This document shows positions 17,904 to 23,635 of a DNA stretch of 56,194 bases, piece after piece. The notes under the pieces were generated by a model. That model did not search any database and was not told where the DNA came from. It saw nothing but the letters and a program-made list of their open reading frames with translations. Position 1 is the first letter of the stretch, and every line of letters starts with the position of its first letter. Both the position numbers and the translations under genes were made by a program. Source of the stretch: Rickettsiales bacterium (GTDB lineage Bacteria > Pseudomonadota > Alphaproteobacteria > Methylaequorales > Methylaequoraceae); NCBI GenBank assembly GCA_002691145.1, contig NZHE01000023.1:331338-387531 (forward strand). The letters are read 5' to 3'.

Positions 17904-18605
17904 ATGTATAAGTGTTCATTTGCCGATTCACATTGTAATAAAGTTATAATTCTATTTTTTTATCTTATTCATTGTTTTCTATTTTGTACGGGAAACCAAA
18001 CTTTAGCCAAAACACCAGAGCAAATGATTAGAGAATCTATAGCAAATTATCCAGGGAAATGTCCTTGTCCTTATTCAATAATGAGTAACGGTAACAAATG
18101 TGGTAAGAAAAGTGCCTATTCAAAACCTGGAGGCCATGAACCACTATGTTATGTGTCTGATGTCACTGGTTTAGAGAGTAGTCAAATTAACATTACTAGG
18201 CCAATTTACAACATAAGAATTATTGATGGCGATACTATCCACATTGATAAAATAAAATACAGATTGCATGGCATTGATGCACCTGAGATAAGACAATTTT
18301 GTCAAATTAATAATAAAAATTATAATTGTGGATTAAAATCAAAAAATTTTTTAATTTCACTCATTGGCAGTCAATTCGTTAGGTGTGAAAAAAAAGATGT
18401 TGATAGATATAAACGTATTGTTGCTGAATGTTTTGTTGGGAATACTAATCTTAATAAAGAATTAGTAAGAAATGGGTGGGCCCTAGCTTATAGAGATTAT
18501 TCTAAAGACTACATTTCTGATGAAGAGTTTGCTGCAAAAAATAGTCTGGGTATGTGGAAAGGTACATTTATCATTCCAAAAAAATGGAGAAAATTAAACA
18601 AGTGA
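17904..18605 (+). CDS. Exported thermonuclease-like protein with Cys-rich N-terminal motif
   Basis: 233 aa. A hydrophobic segment near residues 14-29 acts as signal or anchor. Residues 50-86 form a Cys-rich motif, CPCPYSIMSNGNKCGKKSAY followed by SKPGG and CYVSD, found ahead of SNase domains in some alphaproteobacteria. The staphylococcal nuclease domain follows at about 107-228: IRIIDGDTIHI, YRLHGIDAPE, DRYKRIVAECFV and GWALAYRDYS hold the Ca-binding Asp and catalytic Arg/Glu equivalents. Probably a periplasmic or secreted sugar-nonspecific nuclease for scavenging nucleotides. A second in-frame Met is not obvious, so the start is moderately certain. Confidence 0.85.
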   Translation: MYKCSFADSHCNKVIILFFYLIHCFLFCTGNQTLAKTPEQMIRESIANYPGKCPCPYSIMSNGNKCGKKSAYSKPGGHEPLCYVSDVTGLESSQINITRPIYNIRIIDGDTIHIDKIKYRLHGIDAPEIRQFCQINNKNYNCGLKSKNFLISLIGSQFVRCEKKDVDRYKRIVAECFVGNTNLNKELVRNGWALAYRDYSKDYISDEEFAAKNSLGMWKGTFIIPKKWRKLNK

Positions 18606-18894
18606 ACAATTATTGAAGGTACAGGTTTTAAATAAAAAATTAGAATATAATCAAAGAATATTAAGCAGAAAAACATTTACATATATAGAACTTGCGACTT
18701 AAATTGAAAAACATTTGGCTAATTTGTTGTAGCTAATTGATATGATAAAAATTCTTGATTGATAATTATTCTTTGTTTTAGAGTTATAAAAAGTGAAGAT
18801 AAAATGAGTGGAGCTATGATGAAAGGGACTAAAAAAAAGAAAAGACTCCTAGAAAGTGGCAAGTAAAGTTTGGAATTATTTAACGTATTAAAAT

Positions 18895-19257
18895 ATGCAA
18901 ATAGCTGACTTAATTCTAATAATTCATTGCTTAATTTTTTTTTTTATAATTAGTCTTTTTGTACTAATTCCATATGGTTATTATAAAAATTGGACTTGGG
19001 TAAGTATAAAAAAAATAAGATATACACATTTATTTCTTATGGGATTTGTCACAATTGAAAGCTCTTTAGGTATTATTTGCCCCTTGACTGTTTTGGAGAA
19101 CAATCTTAGGGGAGTCATTACAGATCAAACTTTTCTCAGTAAATATTTATCAAAAATAATTTTTTTTAATCTTCCAAGTTCTGTTTTTCTATCTTTATAT
19201 ATCACAGGATTTTTGATTGCAGTTTTTTTGTGTTTCAAATATCCACCAAAAAAGTAA
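18895..19257 (+). CDS. DUF2784 family membrane protein
   Basis: 120 aa with four hydrophobic helices. The family signature is clear: an N-terminal ADLILIIHCLIFFF, then RYTHLFLMGFVTIESSLGII followed at once by CPLTVLENNLRG. Function of DUF2784 is not known. It stands alone between weakly coding spacers. Confidence 0.8.
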   Translation: MQIADLILIIHCLIFFFIISLFVLIPYGYYKNWTWVSIKKIRYTHLFLMGFVTIESSLGIICPLTVLENNLRGVITDQTFLSKYLSKIIFFNLPSSVFLSLYITGFLIAVFLCFKYPPKK

Positions 19258-19364
19258 ATTACTAATGCAACATTTTAAGTTGAGAAACTTAAATAACAAC
19301 TAAAAAAATAACATTTTAATTTAAAATCATATCATTGCTTGAGTTTTGTAATTAATATTCATAT

Positions 19365-19997
19365 ATGATGAATATGCAAAAGTTTCTTTCATCTCTGGTT
19401 ATAACAATTTTTCTTTCGTCGTGTGCAGTAGAAAAAAAAACCCTTACAGAAAATGTTGGTAAATATGTTCCACCAAATATTAACGATACTAATTTTAAAA
19501 ATTCTGTAATTACTAATAAAAATTTTGACGAAACTTGGACCTCTGTAATTGATTTTGTAAATGATTCTTTTTTTAAAATCGAAAACCTTGAAAAAGGTTC
19601 TGGATTATTAACGTTATCATTTGGTTCAAAAGAGGCTGAAAATTTTATAGATTGTGGTGATTTTGAATATACTCTTTTTTTTACGGGTGAAGAATTTAAA
19701 GGTTCTTACATTGATTATGCAAAAAGTGGCTTATTGGCAGTACTTGAAGCAAAAATGAATATCAATATACAAAAAATTGATAATGAATCTACAAAAGTAA
19801 GTATTAACACAAATTATAAATACTCAACACAACATGCACTTGGGTATTATGACCCCGAGCTAAACCAAACTTATAGTTTTGTATCCGGAGGCTATAAAAC
19901 AATAGATGTTATTAACCCTATTAAAGGAAGTATTCCAACCCGAACTTGTAAATCAACCAACTTTGCAGAGAATTCAATTTTTAAAGTCGTTAAGTAA
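19365..19997 (+). CDS. Predicted lipoprotein of unknown function
   Basis: 210 aa. Lipobox LSSC places the lipid-modified Cys at residue 20. The mature domain (about 50-205) has an alternating strand pattern (WTSVIDFVNDSFFKIENL, GLLTLSFGS, KVSINTNYKYS) resembling small BamC-like or DUF-type outer-membrane lipoprotein folds, but I cannot assign it. Start could also be Met2 or Met4. It converges with the DUF2905 gene. Confidence 0.7.
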   Translation: MMNMQKFLSSLVITIFLSSCAVEKKTLTENVGKYVPPNINDTNFKNSVITNKNFDETWTSVIDFVNDSFFKIENLEKGSGLLTLSFGSKEAENFIDCGDFEYTLFFTGEEFKGSYIDYAKSGLLAVLEAKMNINIQKIDNESTKVSINTNYKYSTQHALGYYDPELNQTYSFVSGGYKTIDVINPIKGSIPTRTCKSTNFAENSIFKVVK

Positions 19998-20007
19998 GTT
20001 TTCTTAG

Positions 20008-20211
20008 TTATTTTTTGAAAAACATCAATACTAAACTAACAACTACACTCACAACAATACAAGTAACAATGGGAAAATAAAAAGAAGAGTTTTCTTTTTT
20101 AATAACAATATCACCTGGTAATCTTCCAAATCCGATATCTCTTAAAAAAGGATATAATAATCCTACAAGAATAAATAAAACTCCAATGATAATAAGTGTT
20201 TTTTGAATCAT
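20008..20211 (-). CDS. DUF2905 family small membrane protein
   Basis: 67 aa with two transmembrane helices separated by the family signature FGRLPGDIVIKKENSSFYFP. DUF2905 proteins are widespread and of unknown function. It lies 10 bases after the MGMT-like gene on the same strand, a probable two-gene operon. Confidence 0.88.
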   Translation of the reverse strand: MIQKTLIIIGVLFILVGLLYPFLRDIGFGRLPGDIVIKKENSSFYFPIVTCIVVSVVVSLVLMFFKK

Positions 20212-20221
20212 AAATGCATTC

Positions 20222-20500
20222 CTAGAATTTTATACCTTCTCTTTCAAGTAGTTTTTTCTTTCTTTCTATTCCTTTTTCACCCATATATCCCCCCATTTTA
20301 CCGTCACTTCTTATGACTCTATGACAAGGAATAATTTCTAATAATGGATTCTTAGCACAGGCATTAGCAACGGCACGATGCGCTTTAGGCTTACCTATCT
20401 TTATCGCGAGTTCTTTATAAGTAATTGTTTTCCCCTTGGGGATTTTTTTTATCTCATTCCAGACCATTTTCTGAAAATCAGTACCCTTTAAATTTTTCAT
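20222..20500 (-). CDS. MGMT-family DNA alkyltransferase, C-terminal domain only
   Basis: 92 aa from the preferred ATG at 20500. A longer frame to 20569 would add a hydrophobic stretch (MDCLFFFYSLNFYYEL) without family similarity. The domain starts with GTDFQKMVWNEIKKIPKGKT and carries the active-site IIPCHRVIRSDGKMGGY; the acceptor Cys is present, so it is not an alkyltransferase-like (PWHR) protein. The N-terminal domain of Ada/Ogt is missing, as in many short homologues. It would repair O6-alkylguanine by suicidal methyl transfer. Divergent from the GIY-YIG gene. Confidence 0.82.
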   Translation of the reverse strand: MKNLKGTDFQKMVWNEIKKIPKGKTITYKELAIKIGKPKAHRAVANACAKNPLLEIIPCHRVIRSDGKMGGYMGEKGIERKKKLLEREGIKF

Positions 20501-20624
20501 CTTTAACTCATAATAAAAGTTTAAACTATAAAAAAAAAATAAACAATCCATTAGATTTTCAGAAATCAATTCCTTTAAATTTTTGAAGGTGGGAGGAGGA
20601 AAAAAATAATGTATAATAATAGAT

Positions 20625-20882
20625 ATGAGTAATTGGTGGGTCTATATAATCCAATGTCGTAATAAAAGTTTATATACAGGTATTACAACTGACGTTGAAC
20701 GACGATTTGATGAACACCAAAACAATGATAAAAAAGCTTCTAAATATTGTGCACGTCTTCGTCCCTTAAAATTAGTTTATCAAAGCTCAGTTTATGAAAA
20801 TAAAAGTGATGCATCTAAAGAGGAATACCGTATAAAACAATTAAGCCATAAAGATAAACTTAATTTTATAAAAACAAATTAA
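20625..20882 (+). CDS. GIY-YIG endonuclease domain protein (UPF0213-like)
   Basis: 85 aa, single domain: WWVYIIQCRNKSLYTGITTD gives the GIY-YIG core (VYII and YTGIT), followed by VERRFDEHQ with the catalytic Arg and a C-terminal KEEYRIKQLSHKDK containing the metal-site Glu. All six Arg codons are CGN, while most genes here use AGA. Its TAA overlaps the recQ ATG by one base, so the two are coupled and may have arrived together. Confidence 0.9.
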   Translation: MSNWWVYIIQCRNKSLYTGITTDVERRFDEHQNNDKKASKYCARLRPLKLVYQSSVYENKSDASKEEYRIKQLSHKDKLNFIKTN

Positions 20883-22684
20883 TGAGCGAACTCAATAAAA
20901 AACTTGTAGATGTATTTGGATACACATCCTTTAGACCGGGACAAGAAGAAGTCATTAATCATTTAATGCAGAAGAAAAAATTGTTAGCTGTAATGCCAAC
21001 AGGGGCAGGTAAATCTTTATGCTATCAACTACCAGCTGTACTATTTGAAAACCAAACTATCGTCGTGTCTCCACTTGTCGCTCTTATGGATGACCAAGTT
21101 ATTGGTTTAAAAGATTTAGGTGTTAAGGCTGAACGTGTTCACTCTGGAATGCCTGAATCTAAACGCATGCAAATATGGGAGGACTTTAAAAATAAACAGA
21201 TTAAAATTTTATATATCTCACCTGAATCATTGATGCGTAATGAAATTTTAAGTGCATTAAAACTATTGAATATTAGTATGTTTGTTGTAGATGAAGCCCA
21301 TTGTGTTTCAAAATGGGGTAGTGATTTTAGACCAGAGTATGAGTTACTGAAAGAACTTCAAAATCATTTTCCTGAAGCAACTATTTCAGCTTTTACAGCG
21401 ACAGCTGATGAAGAAACACGAGCTGATATCAATAACAAATTAACCAATGGTAAAGGTAAAATATTTCTGTATGGATTTAATCGTCCTAATCTTTCATTAG
21501 CCGTACAGCAAAAAACTAATAATTGGAAAGCTCAACTATTAGAGTTTTTGGTAAATAGAAAAAATGAGTCAGGTATTGTGTATTGTTTATCACAAAAGCT
21601 GACAGAACAATGTGCTGAATTTTTAAAATCAGAAGGGTTCAATGCATATCCTTTTCATGCTGGATTAGATACGCAAGTAAAGATAGATACTCAAGACAAG
21701 TTTATGACTGAAGACAATGTTGTGGTTTGTGCAACGATTGCCTTTGGCATGGGAATAGATAAAGCTGATGTTCGTTATGTTGCCCACATAAGTTTGCCTA
21801 GTAGTATGGAAGCTTTTTATCAAGAAATTGGTAGGGCAGGGCGTGATGGTTTAGAGGCTGATACACTTCTCATTTTTGGTTTACAAGATTTGTTTCAACG
21901 TAAACGTTTTATTGATATGAGTGATGCTCATGATAGTTTTAAAATTAAAGAACATAAACGATTAGACGCACTCATTGCTTATTGTGATTCTGCTACATGT
22001 AGACGACAAACATTATTGTCTTATTTTAAAGAAACATGTGAGCCATGTGGTAAGTGTGACAATTGTCTTAATCCACCTTTAATGATTGATGGTACAGAGT
22101 TCGCTCAAATGGTTTTATCAGCAATTTATCGTACAGGACAATTTTTTGGCTCAGGACATATTGTTGATGTGCTAAGAGGAGTTAATAGCGATAAGGTAAA
22201 AGCCAAAGGACACGACAAGATTAAAACATTTGGAGTTGGACGAACGGCTACTGGAGACTTTTGGAAAATATTTATTCGTCAGATGGTATCAGCTAACTAT
22301 TTGCTTATTAATATTCAACGTTATGGTGCATTACAAATTACTCAAAAAGGTGAAACCATTCTTAGGGGTGAAGAAGAATATTTTTATCGTAAGATTGAAT
22401 TTAATACTTCAATTAAAGTAAAAAGAATCAAACCTGCAACTATAGATACAGATACACTTGATAATGAAAAAGAATTATTCTCAGCACTAAAATCTAAACG
22501 TATGGAACTGGCTCGTAGACGACGAGTTCCTGCTTATATAATATTTCCTGATACAACTCTTCATCAAATGCTACTCCATAAGCCCCAAACTCTTGAAGAG
22601 ATGGGAAGACTTAATGGAGTAGGACCACAAAAGTTAGAGAAGTATGGTCAGGCTTTTTTAGAAGTTGTTAGAGGATTTGATTAG
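20882..22684 (+). CDS. recQ: ATP-dependent DNA helicase RecQ
   Basis: 600 aa, full length. Domain order: N-terminal motif 0/I (FGYTSFRPGQ, PTGAGKSLCYQ), DEAH box VVDEAHCVSKWGSDFRPEY, SF2 motif VI EIGRAGRDG, the RecQ zinc site (Cys in CRRQTLLSYF and CEPCGKCDNC), winged helix, and a C-terminal HRDC domain (LKSKRMELARRRRVPAYIIF onward). It unwinds forks and joints in recombination repair. Hand counting gives about 20 CGN to 11 AGR arginine codons, unlike neighbours. Together with the adjacent tRNA-Thr fossils this suggests horizontal acquisition. Confidence 0.97.
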   Translation: MSELNKKLVDVFGYTSFRPGQEEVINHLMQKKKLLAVMPTGAGKSLCYQLPAVLFENQTIVVSPLVALMDDQVIGLKDLGVKAERVHSGMPESKRMQIWEDFKNKQIKILYISPESLMRNEILSALKLLNISMFVVDEAHCVSKWGSDFRPEYELLKELQNHFPEATISAFTATADEETRADINNKLTNGKGKIFLYGFNRPNLSLAVQQKTNNWKAQLLEFLVNRKNESGIVYCLSQKLTEQCAEFLKSEGFNAYPFHAGLDTQVKIDTQDKFMTEDNVVVCATIAFGMGIDKADVRYVAHISLPSSMEAFYQEIGRAGRDGLEADTLLIFGLQDLFQRKRFIDMSDAHDSFKIKEHKRLDALIAYCDSATCRRQTLLSYFKETCEPCGKCDNCLNPPLMIDGTEFAQMVLSAIYRTGQFFGSGHIVDVLRGVNSDKVKAKGHDKIKTFGVGRTATGDFWKIFIRQMVSANYLLINIQRYGALQITQKGETILRGEEEYFYRKIEFNTSIKVKRIKPATIDTDTLDNEKELFSALKSKRMELARRRRVPAYIIFPDTTLHQMLLHKPQTLEEMGRLNGVGPQKLEKYGQAFLEVVRGFD

Positions 22685-22783
22685 TCAAAGAACTTTTTTC
22701 GATGCTCCTCACCAAGCATGGCATAATCATATATTTCCTTATGAATTTGATTATAAAACTCATAACTTTTGCAACCTTAGCGA

Positions 22784-22885
22784 AGCCCACACATAGATTT
22801 TATGTGAAACTATTACTGTGACTCTCGGGGAGTGATAACGATTAGATGATTCAAAAACAAGGGCTACTGATTATTAAACACTTCT
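22784..22885. repeat. Highly decayed third copy of the tRNA-Thr 3' end and flank (att fossil)
   Basis: Ungapped alignment with 23512-23613 keeps GCCCACAC at the start, GAGTG in the middle and CTACTGATTA at the anticodon arm, all at identical spacing. By hand it is about 65% identical over 100 bases. Within the tRNA part most differences are G-to-A or C-to-T, the pattern expected of drift in an AT-biased genome. It lies 100 bases after recQ. Confidence 0.6.
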
Positions 22886-22919
22886 TTAACTTGCTTAAAT
22901 AGAATTTTATACCATAAAA

Positions 22920-23078
22920 TTAAGCTGAGTTATTGTTCAGTTTTTTTTTTGGTTTAAATTTGTTCAAGATATTTGTTTTTTGTGCACAATAACCTAAAGC
23001 AGTTCCTGTTATGAAGGCACCAGCAGTTAACGCACCTGTAACAAAAGCACTCGATATTGCAAGTCTCAATAGTGTCAT
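22920..23078 (-). CDS. Small membrane protein with glycine-rich helix
   Basis: 52 aa. ATG at 23076-23078 is preceded by GAGAG at a normal distance. One transmembrane helix (about 4-30) has small-residue spacing (SSAFVTGALTAGAFITGTAL) suited to helix packing, then a basic tail (KFKPKKK). No family recognised. It lies between two tRNA-Thr fossils, so it could be a leftover of an integrated element. Confidence 0.55.
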   Translation of the reverse strand: MTLLRLAISSAFVTGALTAGAFITGTALGYCAQKTNILNKFKPKKKLNNNSA

Positions 23079-23258
23079 AATTTACTCTCAAAAATTAAAA
23101 TTTATTATATCTCTATAAGTCAATTAATACTATCATTTTTGATTGAAATTTAAACAAAAAAATTGTCCAGGAGAACCAATTGGTGCATATCTTAATGAAT
23201 TTAATAATTTATTAACGAAATATTAATTAAGAAAATAGTTATTTGGGCATAATAATTT

Positions 23259-23370
23259 GTAGCCCCACTTTAGCTCACACAGACATTTTATACGGTGTTT
23301 TTCTGAAGTCTTTGGTGAGTGGTGCCGGTTGGGTGACTCGAACACCCAACCTACTTATTACAAATCAGTT
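23259..23370. repeat. Partial tRNA-Thr duplication with downstream flank (attachment-site remnant)
   Basis: 23320-23370 repeats the 3' 51 bases of tRNA-Thr, CCA included, with only two mismatches, and 23259-23319 repeats the sequence beyond it with one gap (about 84% identity overall). Identity stops abruptly in the anticodon arm, at CAAATCAGTT. This is where tyrosine integrases commonly cross over in tRNA genes. The copy cannot fold as a tRNA because the 5' half is missing. Confidence 0.85.
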
Positions 23371-23497
23371 AGACTTAGGTTTTCAAGGTATTTCACTACA
23401 TTTCATTTTTACCTATAATATATAATATAATCAATATTTTATAGACAAGATCTCTTTAAAAGGTTAAGGTTTATTAGTGTTTTGACATATGTTAAAT

Positions 23498-23610
23498 GTA
23501 GCCCCAGTGTAGCCCACACCAAAATTTTACAAGACAATATTCCTGAAGCCCTTGGTGAGTGGTGCCGGTTGGGTGACTCGAACACCCGACCTACTGATTA
23601 CAAATCAGTT
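23498..23610. repeat. Parent copy of the att-like repeat, including the tRNA-Thr 3' end
   Basis: This block holds TGTAGCCCCAGTGTAGCCCAC and about 40 further bases of flank, then the 3' part of the intact tRNA-Thr. The copies at 23259 and 22784 align to it. Confidence 0.85.
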
Positions 23611-23635
23611 GCTCTACCAACTGAGCTAAACCGGC
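23560..23635 (-). tRNA. tRNA-Thr (anticodon TGT)
   Basis: The reverse complement gives a complete cloverleaf: it begins GCCGGTTTAGCTCAG, the anticodon stem-loop is ACTGA-TTTGTAA-TCAGT, the T-arm has GTTCGAGTC and the end is GGCACCA with encoded CCA. It is the intact member of the repeat family next to it. Confidence 0.97.

Follow-up and report, generated by a model that had tools for sequence, protein, structure and literature searches.

The locus raises the question of how two displaced and partly decayed copies of the 3' half of a tRNA-Thr gene came to lie beside the intact gene, and what became of whatever left them there. The copies are in a stretch of 56,194 nucleotides that was analysed as a whole (hereafter, the window), and the locus is internal to a 388-kb contig of a draft genome (G000; 2.03 Mb in 29 contigs) from a family of uncultured marine Alphaproteobacteria. 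The comparison set comprised 32 genomes of this same family; most of the named relatives retrieved through RecQ are single-isolate assemblies with AG-xxx labels, which, based on this naming, we take to be ocean single-cell genomes. The common gene order around the tRNA is GIY-YIG/recQ, followed at variable distance by tRNA-Thr, panD, and a helicase. An initial annotation of the sequence had anticipated variation among relatives at this site, and the variation is strong: the site is both occupied and empty among relatives with conserved flanking recQ, panD, and helicase genes, and the gap between recQ and the tRNA ranges from 152 bp (G018) to ~19 kb (G006 and G028).

The 3' half of the tRNA and ~62 bases past its CCA end are repeated twice more in the window, at 23258-23370 (copy 2) and 22770-22882 (copy 3), in the same orientation as the intact gene, displaced from it, and collinear with it. 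When the 115-nt block at the intact gene (copy 1) was slid without gaps along the 56-kb window, it matched at 80/115 positions at copy 2 and 76/115 at copy 3, and at no more than 53/115 elsewhere. A comparison of copy 3 with shuffled sequence had been set as a test beforehand, and in 2000 dinucleotide shuffles the score of the local alignment between copies 3 and 1 was never attained; copy 3 was also recovered by nhmmer with an iteratively built profile that included related copies. These results bear out the three collinear segments described in the initial annotation. The limits given there located the copies, with true extents that are slightly wider, and the identities of 84% and 65% are averages over two parts with different histories, namely the tRNA half (96% identical to the intact gene in copy 2 and 63% in copy 3) and the flank (75% and 65% identical to that of copy 1). 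All three copies break at one base, tRNA position 26, just 5' of the anticodon stem, consistent with the anticodon-arm break noted earlier.

Features of the tRNA-Thr locus in the window (P' arm, the element arm beside the tRNA; P arm, the integrase-side arm).
Feature	Position	Strand	Basis
Likely 3'-end remnant of the G009/G014 island cargo gene	22684..22742	-	52 bp: 85% to G009, 83% to G014p
Putative P' arm relic of a third and oldest element	22770..22831	-	72% to G016 distal copy over window 22784-22873; 41/63 to copy 1 flank
Copy 3, older decayed tRNA-Thr 3' half	22832..22882	-	33/52 to intact tRNA; whole copy 76/115; E=1.7e-16
Small ORF of 52 aa between copies 3 and 2	22920..23078	-	G016 homologue on far side of recQ
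Putative P' arm relic of a second element	23258..23319	-	Motif degenerate 15/18 (3 mismatches, 23259-23276); 75% to youngest P' arm (47/63 to copy 1 flank)
Copy 2, displaced tRNA-Thr 3' half (putative attR core of youngest element)	23320..23370	-	49/51 to intact tRNA; relatives' break point
Putative P (integrase-side) arm remnant of youngest lost element	23371..23497	+	82/126 ungapped to G020 P arm
Arm motif GTAGCCCCAGTGTAGCCC, putative P/P' fusion point (probable deletion scar)	23498..23515	+	Sole exact copy in genome
Putative P' arm of youngest lost element, motif to CCA end, 44 nt	23516..23559	-	Spacing as in all relatives
Att core region, 3' half of intact tRNA-Thr	23560-23610	-	
Intact tRNA-Thr(TGT), attachment gene (attB/attL)	23560..23635	-	ARAGORN call; relatives' copies break at same base

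Distal copies of the tRNA-Thr 3' half that are broken at the identical base were identified in 10 genomes of the family, with second distal copies in G009, G013, and G016, and in these relatives a tyrosine integrase, or what remains of one, adjoins a displaced copy or the tRNA itself. In seven of them (G006, G007, G013, G020, G023, G025, and G028) an integrase that we denote as type A lies directly inside the displaced copy. These seven, one per genome, are the only type-A matches among the 32 family genomes, and all are at the tRNA-Thr locus. Type A is P4-like, with arm-binding, central, and catalytic domains (PF13356, PF22022, and PF00589); the A1 integrases are 91-97% identical to one another, and that of G020 (A2) is ~50% identical to A1. 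G016 encodes a degenerate integrase remnant (pseudogene) at its displaced copy, and the integrase of G009 and G014, which adjoins the tRNA itself, is a different protein of 451 aa that is ~21-27% identical to type A. No type-A integrase was found in the window or the rest of its genome, where PF00589 yielded only two matches (~305 and 321 aa). Since the window lacks an integrase while the copies of relatives have one, it is to be regarded as relics of islands rather than as an island. The matching integrase sought by the initial annotation is thus present at the same tRNA-Thr in relatives and missing from the window's own genome.

The islands that were to be sought in relatives were found as elements of 2-28 kb, with core-to-core sizes of 14.7 kb (G006), 15.7 kb (G028), 16.1 kb (G007), 28.1 kb (G013), 15.4 kb (G009), and 2.0 kb (G025). 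Where annotated, their cargo is defence: among the islands scanned, that of G006 encodes a type III restriction-modification system and a UvrD-like helicase, and that of G028 encodes SNF2 helicase, HATPase, and Schlafen-domain genes, several of which have relatives in G013 and G008. The shrunken element of G025, which comprises both arms, a truncated integrase, and one gene, is plausibly an intermediate state on the way to loss.

Several further features of these islands were observed. A gene set recurs in those of G028, G013, and G008 (loci L040, L043, and L049) that includes an SNF2 helicase like ZorD/DpdE, a HATPase, two unknowns, and a protein with a sub-threshold radical-SAM match; it looks like a multi-gene defence system, with no clear PADLOC match. 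The 28-kb element of G013 (L042-L043, contig G013:C1) holds a GIY-recQ pair (72% recQ), with another GIY gene outside, and its content suggests that recQ itself may travel as cargo.

The initial annotation noted that the copies run past the CCA, and these bases are indeed repeated; they are the P' arms of the elements, however, not host flank. The window's flank includes an 18-bp motif (GTAGCCCCAGTGTAGCCC) that, in the 32 genomes, is confined to the arms of tRNA-Thr elements. The pattern GKAGCCCCNGTGKAGCCC has 16 exact matches in the 32 whole genomes, every one at the tRNA-Thr locus, and its reversed control has none in the same genomes. Wherever both type-A arms are intact there are two motif copies per genome (G006, G007, G020, G023, G025, and G028); in G013 the P motif is exact and the P' arm is one base off. 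The P' motif, beside the tRNA, is 43-44 nt from the CCA in every P' arm, and the P motif, inside the displaced copy and just upstream of the integrase, is 129-130 nt from the tRNA fragment. The motif variant tracks the integrase subgroup, with GGAGCCCC in A1, GTAGCCCC in A2 (the G020 integrase), and GTGTTACC repeats in B. Its position, duplication, and coupling to subgroup suggest that the motif is a putative integrase arm-binding site. Duplication of host flank was rejected as the source of these bases, since the motif is absent where no A-type element has been. The profile match in G018, whose recQ-tRNA gap is 152 bp, ends before reaching the arm motif.

Three P' arms imply a minimum of three integrations, unless a composite element arrived at once. 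It is improbable that the series stems from a single integration, and subsequent collapse, of one composite element in which several att copies were present beforehand. Arrays of this kind do arise, as is shown by the old distal copies of G009, G013, and G016, which enclose chromosomal-looking genes, and they could then be captured and transferred. However, the decay of the copies differs greatly (96% versus 63% in the tRNA half), which favors different ages, and a comparison of G006 with G030 points to stepwise addition: the P' arm of the distal copy in G006 resembles the one found next to tRNA-Thr in G030, a genome without the element, and stepwise accretion is thus apparently visible between genomes. 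Accretion of att sites through successive integrations, with later loss of the elements, had been proposed from the window sequence, and the same-break copies of relatives, with integrases beside them, support it.

Older layers may have left traces between recQ and copy 2. The remnant at 22684-22742, between recQ and copy 3, is recognizable at the protein level (13/19 residues, E=0.002), and this 52-bp piece of a cargo gene is possibly the last trace of the oldest element. The small ORF between copies 3 and 2 is 86% identical to its G016 homologue over 42 aa (82% over 224 bp of DNA). The segment that contains it (22883-23257) was considered as the P arm of the middle element and rejected, because the motif is missing at the expected spacing; no recognized arm was found in this segment.

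On the far side of copy 3, the recQ-tRNA-Thr interval (window 17949-22684; loci L038-L074) comprises small gene blocks that are permuted between genomes, with names read from the sequences: thermonuclease-like c4, OGT-like c3, lipoprotein c0, DUF2905-like c2, GIY-YIG, and recQ. Old att copies are directly before c0/c9 in G008, G009, G013, G016, and G024, a pattern that suggests transfer of chromosomal blocks between att sites.

Integrase excision restores a single tRNA 3' end. In the window, both cores of the youngest element remain, and the one motif between them satisfies both spacings, being 130 nt from the core end of copy 2 and 44 nt from the CCA. The 126 nt to the left of the motif agree with the P arm of G020 at 82 positions, compared to 46 for the stretch left of the G020 P' motif; elsewhere in the window the match reaches at most 62, and in 5000 shuffles at most 58. 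Of the 44 nt to the right, 25 agree with the G020 P' arm and 12 with the G020 P side. An nhmmer profile of P arms that was built without the window had its best window match at 23390-23489 (E=0.009). One motif that meets both spacings and is preceded by P-arm sequence suggests that deletion from one arm motif to the other, rather than integrase excision, most likely removed the youngest element, which was A2 and G020-like. RecA-independent deletion between short direct repeats, including the loss of a genomic island, is documented in E. coli (PMC5426353). The remnant is only 65% identical to the arm of G020, its best relative and the only one with this motif variant in its P and P' arms alike, which in G020 are on two contigs. 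A P-arm match to all type-A relatives was tried and rejected: only G020 rose above shuffles, and the A1 elements are too distant. No second scar was found among motif-matched genomes with an A-type P' arm and no integrase, none of which has a tRNA fragment 130 nt upstream of the motif.

Loss of the last element by another route, whether by deletion in several steps or by an aborted integrase reaction, or an origin of the fused arm as the relic of a cargo-less mini-element, is somewhat less probable still than a composite element. The internal shrinkage of the G025 element, which precedes loss, would be in keeping with such a route, but the retention in the window of both cores and a single, correctly spaced motif argues against it. 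A misassembly in which the 18-bp motif served to join one end of a resident element to the other is very unlikely: the genome is a draft and the motif is repeated in full elements, but the type-A integrase is nowhere in the genome, 18 bp is shorter than usual assembly words, and the locus is internal to its 388-kb contig. Equally hard to sustain is partial tRNA duplication by slippage or segmental duplication that copied the 3' end and its native flank twice. The copies are indeed collinear, near each other, and followed by the same kind of flank, but this explanation is largely refuted by a break identical to that of the relatives' element-flanking copies and by the P arm at exact spacing between copies 2 and 1, and the flank is missing in genomes with other element types or none.

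Collectively, these observations make it very probable that the tRNA-Thr gene is an attachment site at which three generations of elements accreted, the last of which was deleted arm-to-arm. This reading draws on what can be aligned, namely the copies and their shared break point, the elements of relatives, the specificity and spacing of the motif, and the identity of the P arm. On this view, tyrosine-integrase elements of 2-28 kb, forming a lineage-specific group, would use the tRNA as their attachment site. Each integration would cut in the anticodon stem-loop, bring in a replacement for the 3' half of the tRNA together with a P' arm, and displace the previous 3' half, with its own P' arm, away from the gene. 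If each P' arm represents one integration event, as we infer, the three generations kept in the window would record at least three integrations, all by elements of the same arm type. The last, related to that of G020, would have been removed by a deletion that ran from the 18-bp motif of its P arm to that of its P' arm, presumably by recombination between short repeats; the integrase and cargo would have been lost with it, and what remained would be the tRNA fragment, the P arm, a single motif, the P' arm, and the tRNA. A broader reading, which we offer tentatively and consider doubtful at present, is that, throughout this bacterial order, the sequence just downstream of tRNA-Thr may be a lineage-wide record of integrase visits, with a P' motif proper to each subgroup, in which elements have been repeatedly immobilized by arm-to-arm deletion, and that such deletion may remove islands by a pathway separate from integrase excision.

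Two main alleles of the tRNA-Thr T-stem/acceptor were observed, GGTTGGGTGACTCGAACACCC in the window versus GCTTGAGAGATTTGAACTCCC. The acceptor 5' strand, which is not replaced by integration, matches the 3' strand in the genomes aligned, and this matching should restrict the hosts that can be entered without breaking the tRNA. Two small contigs of the same assembly (G000:C21 and G000:C1; L003 and L004) encode a different tRNA-Thr(TGT), are 99.8% identical to each other over 3 kb, and have a GC content of 37% versus 28% in the window; they are possibly foreign sequence in the assembly.

The locus is an example of tandem accretion at a tRNA gene, which is a known kind. Islander-type tandem arrays (PMC4383910; PMC8978831) likewise feature a tRNA that the element restores to full length, displaced 3' fragments that share its orientation, a tyrosine integrase, and successive insertions at one tRNA, whereas the elements of the window are gone and att relics and one arm-to-arm scar are left. 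Islander counts a tandem only if every member keeps its integrase, and tallies 125 tandems of at least two members and 4 of at least three, compared to 3919 islands (PMC4383910). Additive flexible genomic islands of Alteromonas (PMC4119200) and Methylophilaceae (PMC10872708) are similar in that cassettes accumulate at a single tRNA whose end is repeated, the repeats being the last 52 nt of tRNA-Leu (PMC4119200) and the last 20 bp of tRNA-Lys (PMC10872708), respectively; in the window, by contrast, the layers are fossil and the P' arms identify the integrase subgroup of each layer. The integrase of G028 has the Arm-DNA-bind_3, Phage_int_M, and Phage_integrase domains of P4-like tyrosine integrases and lies beside a tRNA 3' fragment. 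Unlike other P4-like integrases, the type-A clade was seen in this family only, with one relative (37% identical) among 385 genomes of the class and neither the integrase nor the arm motif found in IMG/VR. Tycheposons, as described in PMC10872708, share a tyrosine recombinase, a tRNA border, and a marine host with these elements. However, the borders here are tRNA 3' fragments, the arm motif and core are specific to tRNA-Thr, and the annotated cargo of relatives comprises restriction-modification, Schlafen, and SNF2 genes, where a tycheposon would be expected to have nutrient-type cargo. The additions to the known kind are the graded series without a surviving element, the coupling of motif to integrase subgroup, and the arm-to-arm scar.

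For this family, the locus provides a concrete example of an island that was probably lost while its footprints were kept, together with a warning that apparent host flank beside a tRNA may be element DNA. Arm-site sequences can be assigned to integrase subgroups without recourse to biochemistry, and genomes that now have no islands may still preserve a readable history of the mobile defence islands of uncultured ocean bacteria.
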